Below are positions 114 through 5,004 of a DNA stretch of 5,004 nucleotides, piece by piece; the stretch's first letter is position 1, and every line of letters begins with the position of its first letter. Source of the stretch: Candidatus Aerophobota bacterium (lineage in GTDB: Bacteria; Aerophobota; Aerophobia; Aerophobales; AE-B3A); the NCBI GenBank assembly GCA_030672445.1, contig DAOVGK010000010.1:1-5004 (forward strand), in the 5' to 3' direction. The notes beneath the pieces were generated by a model. That model saw only the letters and a list, made by a program, of their open reading frames with translations, was not told where the DNA came from and did not search any database. The position numbers were made by a program, and so were the translations under genes.

Positions 114-415
114 TATCTCGATTTCTTTTTGCTTCTGTTGCTATAGTCCGGCGGGCTTTCGCCAAAAAATTAAAAAAGAATTAAAGAAATGAAAAAATGA
201 GAAAAAAACTAGATCCCCTACCCTATCGGCTTAATGAGTTAAAATTGGATCAATTTGTGTTGCATTAGCCTTGAAATCTTCTCAACAACCGACAAAAATC
301 AAGATACTCTGTGGTTGGTCAAGGGAATTCTCTTCTTGCCTAAGAGAGTCCAAATTTGGGGTCTCTTTTGGCTTATTTTAAGAGTTGATCAGCGTATTGT
401 ATCTTAACTGCCGTG
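114..415. other. Intergenic stretch between divergent promoters, no gene seen
   Basis: All six frames are broken by stops and no RNA gene or riboswitch fold is recognised. Three things can be seen. A small GC-rich island at 150-163 has arms GGCG and CGCC around a 6-base loop. It is followed by a strongly A-rich, purine-rich run at about 164-208. An imperfect inverted repeat lies at 342-367 and is listed separately. The spacing is unusually loose for this otherwise tightly packed window, so an unrecognised small RNA or decayed sequence is possible. Confidence 0.4.
342..378 (+). terminator. Imperfect inverted repeat with T-rich tail, possible terminator
   Basis: Arms AAGAGA (342-347) and TCTCTT (362-367) pair perfectly. 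After a G/G mismatch the inner 10-base palindrome CCAAATTTGG (350-359) extends the stem. On the plus strand the repeat is followed by an interrupted T-rich stretch (366-378); on the minus strand no T-tract follows. This would fit a weak rho-independent terminator for a plus-strand transcript ending just before the proC promoter, but no plus-strand gene is seen upstream. A protein-binding palindrome is equally possible. Confidence 0.3.
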
Positions 416-443
416 TTGACACACTGGTAGATTTGGTTATAGT
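416..443 (+). promoter_or_regulatory. Sigma70-like promoter of the proC operon
   Basis: TTGACA (416-421, perfect -35) is followed after 16 bases by TATAGT (438-443, five of six -10 matches). The predicted start is near 450, about 50 bases before the yggS-like leader frame and about 118 before the proC ATG. It is the best plus-strand promoter match in the left region and lies directly upstream of the operon. It was probably the promoter of an original yggS-proC operon (inference). Confidence 0.6.
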
Positions 444-502
444 AAGACTGCCTATTTAATGTGTATCTTCACTTTGTCTAGGAGTACTCTAGGAAAAAAG
501 TA

Positions 503-559
503 ATGAGGATAGCCTCTAACATACGAAAAGTTAGGGAGAAAATTGTAGAGAAAGGATAG
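503..559 (+). pseudogene. yggS: N-terminal remnant of yggS (PLP homeostasis protein), 18 codons
   Basis: An ATG at 503, preceded by AGGA (491-494) at an 8-base spacing, opens an 18-codon frame, MRIASNIRKVREKIVEKG, ended by TAG at 557-559. The pattern M-x-I-x-x-N-[IL]-x-x-[VI]-[RN]-[ED]-[KR]-I is how YggS/YlmE (PLPBP/PROSC) proteins begin; E. coli YggS and B. subtilis YlmE both start this way. yggS classically sits directly upstream of proC, so both position and sequence agree. The family is about 220-240 residues, so the fold, PLP lysine and phosphate-binding loop are all absent. The likeliest history is a deletion joining the head of yggS to the sequence just before proC. The stop overlaps a GTG (TAGTG), so a surviving leader peptide could couple translation to proC. 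A chance resemblance in 18 residues or an assembly deletion cannot be excluded. Confidence 0.55.
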
Positions 560-570
560 TGACTAGAATG
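551..570 (+). promoter_or_regulatory. Ribosome binding site that decides the proC start
   Basis: AAAGGA at 551-556 lies only 2 bases before the GTG at 559 but 11 bases before the ATG at 568. Spacing therefore favours ATG 568. The alternative GTG would add Met-Thr-Arg before the conserved Rossmann start, which the family does not need. Confidence 0.5.
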
Positions 571-1374
571 TTAAAAGAGAAAATCGGCTTCATTGGAGCA
601 GGCAGCATGGGATCAGCTTTAATTAGATTGATTCTAGAAAAGAGGTTAGTCTCTTCTAAGAATTTGTGGATTTGTGACAAGATTCCGGAAAAGCTTTCTT
701 CCTTTTCGGAAAGAGGAGTTAATACTTCAATCAAAATGAAACCGATGATAAAAAGAGTTGATGTTATACTCATAGCCGTCAAACCGCAGGACATTTCCAA
801 AGTTCTAGAAGACTTAAAAAATGAAATTCGACCTTCTCAACTTATAATTTCCATCGTTGCCGGGATTACCATCTCCTATATTAGGCAAGTGTTAAGTGAT
901 GAAATCCCGGTTGTTCGAGTTATGCCCAATGCGCCAGCTTTGATCGGAGAAGGAATATCAGCTATTTCCCCTTCCAGAGGTACAAGTATCGAGAATATTA
1001 AAATAGTAAAGGAAATTCTGCAAGCAGCCGGGGAGATAATAGAAGTCCCCGAAGAACTCCAGGACGCAGTAACAGGCTTAAGTGGAAGTGGACCGGCTTA
1101 TATCTATAGCCTGCTTCAGGGCCTAACTGAAGGGGGAATAAAGGTAGGACTCAGCAAGGAAGTAGCCTCAAGACTGGCTATACAGACTACTCTGGGAGCA
1201 GCAAAAATGGCTAAAGAAAGTGGAGTTTCTCTGGATGAACTTCGAAGATCGGTTGTCTCTCCTGGAGGCACTACCAGTGAGGGGCTTAAGGTTCTAGAAA
1301 AAGGAGGGTTCAAGAGCTGTCTTGTCCAGGCAGTAATTCGGGGTACAGAAAGAGCGAGAAAGCTAAGAAGATAG
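568..1374 (+). CDS. proC: Pyrroline-5-carboxylate reductase
   Basis: Cytosolic enzyme that reduces 1-pyrroline-5-carboxylate to L-proline with NAD(P)H, the last step of proline synthesis. The 268-residue product, counted from ATG 568, has the usual family length. Residues 7-15 are the Rossmann dinucleotide loop GFIGAGSMG. The motif VKP lies at 71-73 and VRVMPNAP at 116-123. The C-terminal all-helical dimer domain carries LSGSGPAY (171-178) and SPGGTT (231-236), the core of the P5CR signature that binds substrate. No key residue appears missing. The start could also be GTG at 559 (271 residues), which overlaps the stop of the yggS-like remnant, but ribosome-site spacing and family alignment favour the ATG. 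It is transcribed from the promoter at 416-443 and is followed after 15 bases by the DivIVA-domain gene. Proline is itself an osmolyte, so the gene may relate loosely to the solute cassette on the other strand (inference). Confidence 0.96.
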   Translation: MLKEKIGFIGAGSMGSALIRLILEKRLVSSKNLWICDKIPEKLSSFSERGVNTSIKMKPMIKRVDVILIAVKPQDISKVLEDLKNEIRPSQLIISIVAGITISYIRQVLSDEIPVVRVMPNAPALIGEGISAISPSRGTSIENIKIVKEILQAAGEIIEVPEELQDAVTGLSGSGPAYIYSLLQGLTEGGIKVGLSKEVASRLAIQTTLGAAKMAKESGVSLDELRRSVVSPGGTTSEGLKVLEKGGFKSCLVQAVIRGTERARKLRR

Positions 1375-1389
1375 ACAAGGAAAAAAGCT

Positions 1390-1950
1390 ATGACCATAGA
1401 TCCTTCTGAAATTGAGAAAAAGAAATTTGAGCTTTCCTTTAGAGGATATAACCAAAGAGAGGTAAATGAATTCTTAAGGGAGATAAAAAAGGACTATGAG
1501 CAGCTTCTGAAAAGAAATAAAGCCTTATCGGAAGAGCTAGATCAAACAAAAAAAGAGTTAGAAAAGTATAATTTAAGAGGAGAAAGACTGGAAGAAGCTC
1601 TGATCTCAGCCCAAAGAAGTGCCAGACTAATCACTGAAAGTAGCCAGGAAAGAGCTAAATTAATCATCGAGGAGGCAGAATTAAAAGCTAAAAAAAGTCT
1701 GGAGAAAAGTGAGGAAAAACTAGGGAAACTAAAAGAGGAGATTGTCAAACTAGAGGGACAAAAAAAGCTCTTTCTTACCAAACTAAGATCTCTAATTATG
1801 GCTCATTCCGAACTATTAGAATTTTATGAAGAACCACCAGTAGAAAAAAAGACCAAAGAAGACACCAGTCCCCCTCTCCCCAAAGAAAATCCCCCACCCT
1901 TCTCTTTCCGAGAAACTTCCCCAGAAGGAATCCTCTTTGAGGAGGAGTAG
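1390..1950 (+). CDS. DivIVA-domain coiled-coil protein
   Basis: Likely a membrane-curvature-sensing scaffold that gathers division or polar-growth proteins at septa and poles, acting on the cytoplasmic face of the membrane. The 186-residue product begins with the DivIVA N-domain, and FRGY falls at residues 17-20. The Phe17/Arg18 pair, which in B. subtilis DivIVA inserts into and binds the membrane, thus sits at the same positions. The next motif is REVNEFLREI (22-31). A long Lys/Glu-rich coiled coil follows to about residue 140. The tail from about 148 is Pro- and acid-rich (PPVEKK, SPPLPKENPPP) and looks disordered. There is no signal peptide or membrane helix. AAGGA at 1377-1381 lies 8 bases before the ATG. 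The gene is co-directional with proC and presumably in its operon. In many bacteria this position follows sepF/yggT; neither is between them here. The DivIVA family is clear; which division or growth role it has is not. Confidence 0.88.
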   Translation: MTIDPSEIEKKKFELSFRGYNQREVNEFLREIKKDYEQLLKRNKALSEELDQTKKELEKYNLRGERLEEALISAQRSARLITESSQERAKLIIEEAELKAKKSLEKSEEKLGKLKEEIVKLEGQKKLFLTKLRSLIMAHSELLEFYEEPPVEKKTKEDTSPPLPKENPPPFSFRETSPEGILFEEE

Positions 1951-1958
1951 GCAAATTA

Positions 1959-3197
1959 TTAGCTAAGCAAGCCTTTCAGATAATCCTGGTAGATAGCCTC
2001 CCAGGAAAACTTGGATACCGCCCGTCTAAACATAAGGTAAGTTGGCTGAGTAGTGAGGGACTCTATTATTTGTCTGGCAATACGAGAAGGCTCATCATCC
2101 AGTTTAAAAAGCAAGGCCTTATCTTTGGCAATTTCTGATAGCGGCGGTATGTCGCTGCAAGTAATGGGCAGTTTCATTGCCGCTGCCTCTAAAAGTGGAA
2201 TTCCGAAGCCCTCCTGGGAAGAAGTAATCAGTAATAGATCAGAGATCCGGTAAAGATCTTGTAGCTCTCGATAGCCAATCTCTAGTCCATACTTGTTCTT
2301 CAAGTCGCTGATGAAAAGAACATTATCCTTAAGCTCCATTTTTTCTACCAGATCGTGCAAGTAACGGTAATATTTCTTTGAGGTGGAATTATGGGGATCG
2401 GAGGGGGCAGTTATTAGCAGTTTACATTTTTTACCTGAGGCAGCTAGCTCTTTCGTTATCTTGATGGCTAACTCATAATTTTTCCTCTTGACGATTCTGG
2501 AGGGAAAGAGCATAACCAGATCGTCATCAAAAATCCTCTTGTCACAAGCCATTTTCCATACGGGATCCGAGATTCTTAAGAACGACTTTATATCTATGCC
2601 ATTGGGAATGACTCTAATTAGATTCTCTGAGACACCAAATAACTCGGAAAGCTGCTTTTTTCTCCACTGCGAGATGGCAATGTAAGTAGCATTTTGGTTA
2701 AACTTTCTTAAGAGGGACCAGGGATACTGACTCAGGTCTCCAACGTCATAATCCGGATTCATCAAGGTAGCATCGTGACACCACAGATAAAACCTTATCT
2801 TGTGGTGAAGTTCATCGATAATCTCATCCAAAACTGAGGTTAAAGCAAGGTTAAAATGCATAGTCATGACATTATGTATCAGGCAGATATTAACCTCTTC
2901 CAGGGAATGTTTAATCTTAGGATAAATGATCCTCCTTAATCTCTGGAAACGCTCTGAAACGATACCTTGCTTCAACTCTTCTGCTACGACTTTATTTTCT
3001 GGCCAGCCTGATCCAATTTCAGAGACAAGGTCTATCTGGATACTCTTGTGTCTAGTTTCGCCTTTGGCGGTGATGATCTTTATTCTGCACCCATTCTTAG
3101 CCAGAATTTCAGCATGTCCCTTTATGATAAACTCCACTCCCCCTATCACCGGAGGATAAGAGTAGTGCAGGATGGCTACCTTCTTTCCAGAAATCAT
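1959..3197 (-). CDS. GT4-family glycosyltransferase, probably acting on glucosylglycerate
   Basis: A 412-residue GT-B retaining glycosyltransferase transferring a sugar from an NDP-sugar donor, cytosolic, with no membrane helix. The N-terminal acceptor domain begins with SYPPVIGGVE (13-22), the glycine-rich loop of GT4 enzymes, and carries HDA at 141-143. The C-terminal donor domain starts near PNGID (198-202). It has SRIVKRKN (233-240), with the Arg/Lys that bind donor phosphates, and EGFGIPLLE (329-337), the E-x7-E motif. All key residues seem present. It is the last gene of the minus-strand operon: its ATG overlaps the phosphatase stop (ATGA, 3194-3197), with AAAGG at 3210-3206 as ribosome site. 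Next to gpgS and a phosphatase, a mannosylglucosylglycerate synthase-like role (mannose onto glucosylglycerate or its phosphate) is the best inference. GT4 specificity cannot be read from motifs; it could equally extend a glycan starter. Confidence 0.85.
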   Translation of the reverse strand: MISGKKVAILHYSYPPVIGGVEFIIKGHAEILAKNGCRIKIITAKGETRHKSIQIDLVSEIGSGWPENKVVAEELKQGIVSERFQRLRRIIYPKIKHSLEEVNICLIHNVMTMHFNLALTSVLDEIIDELHHKIRFYLWCHDATLMNPDYDVGDLSQYPWSLLRKFNQNATYIAISQWRKKQLSELFGVSENLIRVIPNGIDIKSFLRISDPVWKMACDKRIFDDDLVMLFPSRIVKRKNYELAIKITKELAASGKKCKLLITAPSDPHNSTSKKYYRYLHDLVEKMELKDNVLFISDLKNKYGLEIGYRELQDLYRISDLLLITSSQEGFGIPLLEAAAMKLPITCSDIPPLSEIAKDKALLFKLDDEPSRIARQIIESLTTQPTYLMFRRAVSKFSWEAIYQDYLKGLLS

Positions 3198-3748
3198 AAG
3201 GAAAACCTTTCAATTTGGGCAATCTCGGGTAGTTTTCGCCATAGTAGATTAAGGCGACTGTCGCTGTTCAAGATTAATTTTATTAAGGCATTGATAACTT
3301 TGTGAGCGACTATTACTCCCGTTCCTTCTCCAGGGAGAATATTTTCAGTCCAGAACTGCCTCGCTCTTTGGAATGCCTCCCTCACACTCTCCCCTCTTGG
3401 AGGTGTAACTGAAGTAGGATCTTTTTCCCATCTTGAGTAAAGATCCGGATATAACCTCCTTGCTTCCGAGGTCTTCATTCCCTCCCATTTCCCCTGCCTA
3501 AGCTCATCTAGCCTTTTGTCGGTCAGGACTTCCAATTTATGAAGCTTAGCTATCTTAATAGCAGTATCAAGAGCGCGGGAAAGCCTACTGGAATAAATAT
3601 AATGAATGACTGTATGAGAGAGTCTCGCGGCAATATCTCTTGCTTGCTCTTTTCCCCGCTCATTTAAAGGGATATCAACTCCTCCTTGGATTCTATTTTC
3701 TCGGTTCCAGTTGGTTTCGCCGTGCCGCACTAAAATTACTCTCTTCAA
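3194..3748 (-). CDS. Histidine phosphatase (phosphoglycerate mutase-like), candidate glucosyl-3-phosphoglycerate phosphatase
   Basis: A 184-residue cytosolic member of the histidine phosphatase superfamily. The RHGET motif at residues 8-12 supplies the nucleophile His9. Arg58 follows in YSSRLSRAL (52-60). The general acid is probably Glu82 in LDELRQGKWEG (80-90), and the second catalytic His is His149. The His149 context is VAHKVINAL rather than the commoner SHGG form. Its place between gpgS and a glycosyltransferase, with both junctions overlapping, suggests it removes phosphate from glucosyl-3-phosphoglycerate to give glucosylglycerate. Mycobacterial GpgP is a histidine phosphatase of this superfamily, which supports the idea; mannosyl-3-phosphoglycerate phosphatase is by contrast a HAD enzyme. 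The start is TTG at 3748, overlapping the gpgS stop (TTGA), with a strong AGGAGG five bases upstream. Alternatives are a general sugar-phosphate phosphatase or a phosphatase acting on a mannosylated product. Family is certain, substrate inferred. Confidence 0.88.
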   Translation of the reverse strand: MKRVILVRHGETNWNRENRIQGGVDIPLNERGKEQARDIAARLSHTVIHYIYSSRLSRALDTAIKIAKLHKLEVLTDKRLDELRQGKWEGMKTSEARRLYPDLYSRWEKDPTSVTPPRGESVREAFQRARQFWTENILPGEGTGVIVAHKVINALIKLILNSDSRLNLLWRKLPEIAQIERFSL

Positions 3749-4716
3749 TTTGTCCTCCTGCGTCGATATTGCTTCACAGTGATCATAGGGGGTCTTTCGA
3801 TGAAGGAAAATCTTTCTTTTTTCAAAAAGATATCTTCTCCTCGTCTCTTGACCAACTCAAACTCATTAGAGGTTACTTTTTTGAAAGCCACAAGATCTTG
3901 CTCCTGCAGTCTGGCGAAAAAGGTGTGCAGGATGGCAAACGACATCTTACCCAGAGCAGCTAACCTCTGGTGTCTGTGGACTCTTTTATCTAGATCTACC
4001 TGTGCTAAACCTTTCAGCCCACATTTTTCATAAATATCTATAAGCAGACCTATTTCTACTCCATAGCCGACCCGGAAAGGAACCGCCTCCAGAATCTCTC
4101 TTCTGCCGGCATATTCACCTGATAAGGGCTGCATAAAACCGCATAATTCTGGATAAAAATTAGCTAAAAGAGGTCTTGCTAAGATTTCGGTAACTCTTCC
4201 CCCACCTGAGGATCTCATCTTATTTCCGAGCACCAAAGGTCTCTCATAGAAGGCCTTGACGTATTTAAGATGATCGTATTCTAAAAGTGGTCCCACCGTC
4301 CCATAAACAAATTTGGGATGAATATTCTTAATGTCGGCATCTATCCAGACGATGATGTCCCCTTCCAGAACATAAAGGCTTTTCCAAAGATTTTCCCCTT
4401 TACCTCTGATACTTCCAAACTCTGGAAGGCAATCATCGGCCAGATAAACCTTAGCTCCGGCCTCCCGGGCTAATTCCCTGGTTCTATCAGTGGAACCGCT
4501 ATCCATGACCACGATCTCGTCTATCAAAGGATACTCCATCTGTAGCTTCCCCTTTATTACATTGATCTCCTGGGCGACCGTCTCCTCCTCATTCAATGTC
4601 GGAAAAGCTAAGCTAATTCTAAGATTCTTCTTTTTCTTCAGCTCAACCAACCGGCTTATGTTAGAAAAAGAAGAATGATGATAAGTATTGGTCTTAATCC
4701 ATTCATCTATTTTCAT
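3745..4716 (-). CDS. gpgS: Glucosyl-3-phosphoglycerate synthase (GT81)
   Basis: GT-A glycosyltransferase that transfers glucose from an NDP-glucose (GDP- or UDP-) to D-3-phosphoglycerate, the first step to glucosylglycerate, in the cytosol. Counted from ATG 4716 the product has 323 residues. It opens MKIDEWIKTNTYHHSSF, typical of the family. The nucleotide-binding start is AFPTLNEEE (37-45), then MDSGSTDRT (71-79). The metal-binding DAD is at 126-128. The acceptor loop SSGGGRVTE lies at 169-177, GYGVEIGLLID at 217-227, and RVHRHQ at 245-250 holds the family's metal-coordinating histidine region. An upstream GTG at 4737 would add seven residues, but it touches AAGG with no spacer and lies outside the conserved start. 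ATG 4716 in turn has only a weak ribosome site, so the start is uncertain. It heads a three-gene operon and its stop overlaps the phosphatase start. Mannosyl-3-phosphoglycerate synthase (GT55) is less likely given these motifs. Confidence 0.92.
   Translation of the reverse strand: MKIDEWIKTNTYHHSSFSNISRLVELKKKKNLRISLAFPTLNEEETVAQEINVIKGKLQMEYPLIDEIVVMDSGSTDRTRELAREAGAKVYLADDCLPEFGSIRGKGENLWKSLYVLEGDIIVWIDADIKNIHPKFVYGTVGPLLEYDHLKYVKAFYERPLVLGNKMRSSGGGRVTEILARPLLANFYPELCGFMQPLSGEYAGRREILEAVPFRVGYGVEIGLLIDIYEKCGLKGLAQVDLDKRVHRHQRLAALGKMSFAILHTFFARLQEQDLVAFKKVTSNEFELVKRRGEDIFLKKERFSFIERPPMITVKQYRRRRTN
3746..3759 (-). promoter_or_regulatory. Consensus AGGAGG site fixing a TTG start
   Basis: On the minus strand AGGAGG (3759-3754) is followed by five bases and TTG (3748-3746). 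The site lies inside the last codons of gpgS and supports the TTG as the true start of the phosphatase gene: the RHGET motif begins at residue 8, as the family expects. Confidence 0.7.
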
Positions 4717-4811
4717 TGTTCTTAGTTTATAATACACCTTCCCTCTAAATATTTTAGCCTCGGAATATCTCTATCATCCGTAACAGCAAGTAAAAAGTCA
4801 GATTTATCCTC

Positions 4812-4839
4812 ATTATACTACCTTTGCATAAAAAGACAA
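4812..4839 (-). promoter_or_regulatory. Candidate promoter of the gpgS operon
   Basis: On the minus strand TTGTCT (4839-4834, four of six -35 matches) is followed after 16 bases by a perfect TATAAT (4817-4812). Transcription would start near 4805, giving a leader of about 90 bases before the gpgS ATG. That leader contains CTAAA-ATA-TTTAG (4757-4745), a 13-base inverted repeat that could be an operator or just AT-rich chance. Confidence 0.5.
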
Positions 4840-5004
4840 TTAGCTTTGATCATACTATAGAGAAAGCTTGAAGATCATATTTTAACCGGTGTGTGCCTTG
4901 ATAATACCAGAAAAATGTTAGTATTCAAGAGATTTATACGCGTATCGAGGGACTTTCCCCGAAGGAGCCTTATATCAGCCACCTTAACGAGTCTTCGAGT
5001 TGAG
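4840..5004. other. Right-edge region, no confident gene
   Basis: Two frames run through this stretch and off the edge, one on each strand, so neither can be trusted. On the minus strand a frame is open from the window edge to TGA at 4877-4875 (42 codons). On the plus strand a frame is open from 4861, with its ATG at 4915 (MLVFKRFIRVSRD...) and no good ribosome site. Neither product is recognised. The minus frame continues with few stops to 4722, described under findings. Confidence 0.3.

Follow-up and report, generated by a model that had tools for sequence, protein, structure and literature searches.

A single in-frame deletion has very probably reduced yggS to an 18-codon remnant upstream of proC in an Aerophobetes lineage

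The window analysed here, a 5,004-nucleotide stretch of DNA, carries proC behind a promoter-like site and a short open reading frame. Its nearest genome contigs come from Candidatus Aerophobetes MAGs, L001 (94% identical over the 271-residue ProC query; its proC is 95% identical) and L002 (87%); three further loci are 56-57% identical, and there are 29 loci in all. Using L001 as the sister sequence, the following features were assigned:

416..443, + strand: promoter-like site of the former yggS-proC operon (TTGACA-N16-TATAGT, sigma-70-like, 11 of 12 consensus bases)
491..494, + strand: AGGA, possible ribosome site for the 18-codon frame, 8 nt 5' of ATG 503
503..559, + strand: 18-codon frame reading MRIASNIRKVREKIVEKG, from ATG 503 to the stop TAG 557-559
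503..551, + strand: retained yggS 5' end, 16 codons plus one base, identical to L001 296-344 at 48 of 49 bases
551..552, + strand: deletion junction, between whose sides 624 bp (L001 345-968) are missing, with no microhomology relative to L001
552..559, + strand: retained yggS 3' end, AAGGATAG, made up of a partial codon (two bases), the final codon and the stop
568..1374, + strand: proC, pyrroline-5-carboxylate reductase (TIGR00112, 264 bits, cut-off 196.75), with a conserved ATG start
downstream of proC: DivIVA-domain protein
opposite strand: glycosyltransferase (several family-4 models matched, all below their cut-offs)
opposite strand: histidine-phosphatase-like protein (best model below cut-off)
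opposite strand: glucosyl-3-phosphoglycerate synthase (396 bits, cut-off 262)

Both hexamers of the promoter-like site are kept in L001 and L002. Positions 1-1400 of the window hold five promoter-like sites, compared with 2.7 (sd 1.8) in shuffled sequences, so the 416-443 site taken alone is weak evidence. We infer that proC is expressed from this retained yggS promoter. The AGGA at 491-494 is absent from L001 in the alignment, and a second ribosome-site-like motif, AGGAG, lies at 480-484, 18 nt 5' of ATG 503. For proC, the candidate ribosome site is AAGGA at 552-556, which lies inside the retained 3' end of yggS, 11 nt 5' of ATG 568. A preliminary description of this DNA had the TAG of the short frame overlapping a GTG just before proC. 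The overlap itself (TAG 557-559 with GTG 559-561) is there, but comparison with related sequences indicates ATG 568 as the most likely start of proC: the in-frame alternative GTG 559 was rejected because L002 has ACG at that place, and ten of eleven database ProC proteins (P0122-P0132, 81-88% identity) have 268 residues and a starting Met aligned with ATG 568, the eleventh, P0131, being listed with 274 residues. Between the window and L001, proC has a dN/dS of 0.25, which fits a gene that continues to be used.

The minus-strand genes for glucosyl-3-phosphoglycerate synthase, the histidine-phosphatase-like protein and the glycosyltransferase form a row (1959-4737) that resembles a compatible solute cluster of the glucosylglycerate type, in which the histidine-phosphatase-like protein may provide the GpgP step. 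The glycosyltransferase gene sits between divIVA and the phosphatase gene in the window and in L001 and is missing from L002, which at 5917/5918 has a clean 1195-bp gap relative to window 1957-3151, so that nearly the whole gene is absent; this is a second gene-sized clean deletion on the contig that carries the L002 yggS deletion described below. L002 also has a stretch of about 3.7 kb (approximately 510-4234, against window 393-416) just 5' of the yggS-proC promoter. It is absent from the window and from L001, and contains two long minus-strand frames that by eye resemble a response regulator and a PAS sensor.

The 18-codon frame had been described as the amputated head of yggS, with about 200 codons gone and with promoter, leader and first codons surviving, and comparison with sister genomes had been proposed as a check. 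That comparison bears out each of these points. In L001, an intact 226-codon yggS (296-976 including the stop) lies directly 5' of proC, and its product passes the TIGR00044 model for YggS/PLPBP (COG0325) with 167 bits against a cut-off of 106.25; this orthologue was tested in place of the 18-codon frame, which is itself too short for a profile search. By BLAST, window 552-4722 corresponds to L001 969-5139 without gaps at 96.2% identity, and window 206-551 corresponds to L001 1-344 at 83%. Deletion coordinates were taken from these matches; a three-way alignment misplaces the short head of the window. The window is thus L001 minus 345-968, an in-frame loss of 624 bp (681 - 57) between collinear flanks, which leaves 18 codons of the full-length gene and removes 208. 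At the join, A from the left and AA from the right make a hybrid Lys codon, followed by Gly and the old stop. The similarity of the head to yggS is far beyond chance, and it is in keeping with the coding-region identity between the window and L001 (95.3-97.1% per gene). Together with the same promoter hexamers and the same downstream genes, it marks the frame as a yggS remnant, homologous by descent and at the same locus. The N-terminus MRIASN of the window frame is also found in six of ten close YggS relatives (P0004-P0007, P0009 and P0010), and the Ser/Arg difference between the window and L001 therefore reflects natural variation. In E. coli YggS, the PLP-binding lysine is given as Lys36 (PMC9601805). 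Visual comparison with the E. coli peptide given in that paper places a matching Lys of L001 YggS in an AATK segment; the 18-residue frame of the window stops short of this lysine.

In the non-coding stretch 206-502, 55 of 294 bases differ from L001, and window 4797-4896, at the far end, is only 77% identical. These stretches differ by 19-23%, compared with a dS of 0.06-0.14 at the silent sites between them. Because 206-502 is more diverged than silent sites, recombination around the locus is possible, as is fast intergenic change; the same drop in identity at the far end indicates that the divergence is not particular to the junction.

A join of this kind could also be produced by misassembly or strain mixing in an organism that in fact has an intact yggS. 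The intact gene in L001 and nine database relatives, the apparent extent of the window as a single contig of 5004 bases, and the lack of the window junction in any other record are all compatible with such an artefact; among 17 Aerophobota genomes, window 380-620 matches those of L001 and L002, each as two separate pieces with other sequence between. However, a repeat capable of causing a misjoin was not found at the junction. Between the 200-nt stretches at either break point, the longest common string is 8 nt and lies out of register, which together with zero microhomology means that a misjoin is not explained by a repeat. The join is clean and in frame, and its flanks are collinear. Moreover, the same gene is broken in other ways in L002 and, judged from protein, in P0010, and a near-copy of the L002 remnant exists in a second record (P0230). 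We therefore consider an artefact very unlikely, and infer from these sequence comparisons that the deletion is present in the organism and not merely in the assembly.

Ten database YggS proteins are 88-98% identical, nine of them full length (P0001-P0009, 226 or 228 residues). L002 lacks the equivalent of L001 252-745, so that the leader, the start codon and codons 1-150 are gone while the promoter is kept. From an inner ATG, 69 residues of this remnant can be read; they lack the PLP lysine and reach 48.6 bits against the TIGR00044 cut-off of 106.25. The protein collection holds the remnant as P0229 (100%, from L002's own MAG) and as P0230 (99%, a distinct sequence in another NCBI record), on four and three contigs respectively, counts which may include one contig from several sources repeatedly. 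In P0010, which is 88% identical to L001 YggS, the C-terminus VEYAKTR replaces a glycine-serine stretch, and deleting ten bases at the matching spot of the L002 sequence yields exactly VEYAKTR and a stop. The altered C-terminus, judged here from the protein alone, may thus be explained by a 10-bp deletion; it may also be a sequencing error or belong to a working protein, and P0010 still scores 143.8 bits, above the TIGR00044 cut-off. Ser205, Arg220 and Thr223 are described as PLP contacts in E. coli YggS (PMC9601805), and these residues would fall in or near the part lost by P0010.

A ProC tree groups the window with L001 (100/99) and L002 with P0122 and P0123 (98/95); besides the window's own protein it includes L001, L002, L003 and L005 and 16 of 107 database matches, with L004 left out. 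Given these separate groups and the different break points, the losses in the window and in L002 are independent. A YggS tree (16 of 120 listed proteins plus L001) was poorly resolved, with good support for two of 14 inner branches, and was not used. Thus, at least one other clade member carries an independent break of yggS, and the 18-codon frame is an eroded yggS within a clade that is losing the gene more than once.

Other incomplete matches do not enter the count of lesions. Since contig ends may cut C-terminal fragments, P0231-P0234 (on contigs of 531-1345 bases), P0236 and P0238 were excluded. P0236 lies on a 3996-base contig, and the contig of ProC P0130 is also 3996 bases long. P0238 is a 55-residue YggS fragment of the clade, on a contig of 1207 bases; its end is out of frame, and it is a possible further lesion. 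P0235, P0237, P0239 and P0240 (56-62% identity; four of the 12 matches in the remnant search) seem to belong to other lineages and were set aside.

The preliminary description further suggested that the short frame now acts as a leader peptide. The frame retains a start, a stop and a near ribosome site, and its stop lies 8 nt before ATG 568. Its 48 matches in 49 bases compare with 239 in 294 aligned bases of the non-coding stretch just upstream; at that background rate, at most one change has P = 5e-4. These features would fit a functional leader that opens or times proC translation, for which the in-frame deletion has been kept. However, a recent deletion in a coding gene predicts the same conservation (P = 0.38 at the coding rate). 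Attenuators and leader peptides of amino acid genes contain codons for the regulating amino acid, with a terminator or an alternative hairpin before the gene. Here, the 18 codons include no Pro codon, the + strand shows nothing terminator-like within positions 1-1400, the fold of RNA 449-620 is no better than that of shuffled sequences (z 0.11), and a search of the window against RNA families produced no Rfam match; a regulatory role is thus not borne out. The in-frame join was considered as a sign of selection and rejected: its chance is one in three, and either of the other joins also leaves proC translatable, one stopping at TAG 564-566 and the other running in frame into ProC, so that the kept frame says little. 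L002, moreover, keeps proC despite total loss of the leader and start. A functional leader is therefore very unlikely, although the geometry would allow passive translational coupling from the frame to proC, which is possible. A broader account, in which YggS is repeatedly removed in this uncultured Aerophobetes clade with promoter and proC spared and pdxJ kept, and in which the window remnant is a young coupling leader made in one step, also appears improbable.

Loss of YggS raises the question of another copy and of PLP supply. Among the 17 Aerophobota genomes, TIGR00044 gave a match in 12 and a score above cut-off in nine. The L001 genome has one yggS copy, and in G009 a contig breaks off within a yggS whose first 68 residues are 63% identical. 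In the L002 genome, a MAG of uncertain completeness, no second yggS exceeded the TIGR00044 cut-off; besides the remnant it has two weak matches, within frames of 393 and 398 residues, for which alanine racemase is one guess. Of the PLP synthesis genes, pdxJ passes in 15 of the 17 genomes, including those of L001 and L002, and pdxS in none. With pdxJ present and yggS over cut-off absent, L002 seems able to make PLP without YggS. The lack of a second match over the cut-off in L002 favours dispensability over another copy, and the different breakage of the gene in this close relative suggests a lineage able to do without yggS, so that selection on the gene would be relaxed in this Aerophobetes clade. 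The genomes searched are incomplete MAGs, with proC found in eight of 17, and the missing second copy in L002 is therefore no proof; for any one genome, failure to find a gene carries little weight.

YggS, which is described as occurring in every domain of life, has no settled role yet. It is very widespread, exceeding the cut-off in 11 of 14 control genomes. In other bacteria, yggS loss is reported to give phenotypes (PMC13353753, PMC11619424, PMC8787154), which is evidence against general dispensability. Normal growth is reported for an E. coli strain from which yggS was deleted (PMC11602438); this strain resembles the present case in that YggS loss is tolerated with PLP synthesis present, and differs in being a laboratory deletion and not a natural loss.

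Taken together, the yggS remnant is very probably the product of one clean internal 624-bp deletion, tolerated under relaxed selection, with promoter and proC kept. A single event would have taken the 208 codons, including that for the PLP-binding lysine. The yggS promoter and leader, its start and stop codons and the AAGGA before proC would all have stayed in place, so that the old promoter could still drive proC, with translation beginning at ATG 568. The AAGGA formerly lay in the last yggS codons and was spared. Transcription would start after position 443, and ribosomes may still translate the 18-codon relic, beginning at ATG 503 and halting at 557-559. Because relic translation would end 8 nt before ATG 568, an earlier translational coupling could be kept passively. 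Loss of yggS would be tolerated because the gene is under relaxed selection in this clade.

Convergent, independent yggS loss, attributed to relaxed selection, has been described in Blochmannia (PMC3017870). As far as that account goes, the two cases are alike in that yggS was lost independently in related lineages and is intact in a relative. They differ in that Blochmannia are insect endosymbionts with no detectable yggS relict, whereas the window, from an uncultured candidate phylum, keeps head, promoter and stop; the Blochmannia paper makes no mention of proC. COG0325 (yggS) and proC are reported as gene neighbours (PMC5504682), an arrangement that L001 shares, with yggS directly before proC, and from which the window differs by the yggS deletion. 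Among the eight proC-positive Aerophobota genomes, intact yggS adjoins proC only in that of L001 and a remnant does so in that of L002, while in G003, G005, G007, G014 and G015 proC and an over-cut-off yggS are on different contigs. Our literature search found no publication linking YggS with Aerophob- and none combining PLPBP, YggS and 'gene loss'. The remnant is a further case of the known erosion of yggS, with an unusually clean intermediate.

A clade in which yggS is intact, partly lost or nearly lost at one locus is a natural comparison set, and accompanying changes upon YggS loss, in PLP enzymes or B6 uptake, could be read from its genomes. The locus itself displays, base by base, how an operon can lose its first gene with the second still connected.
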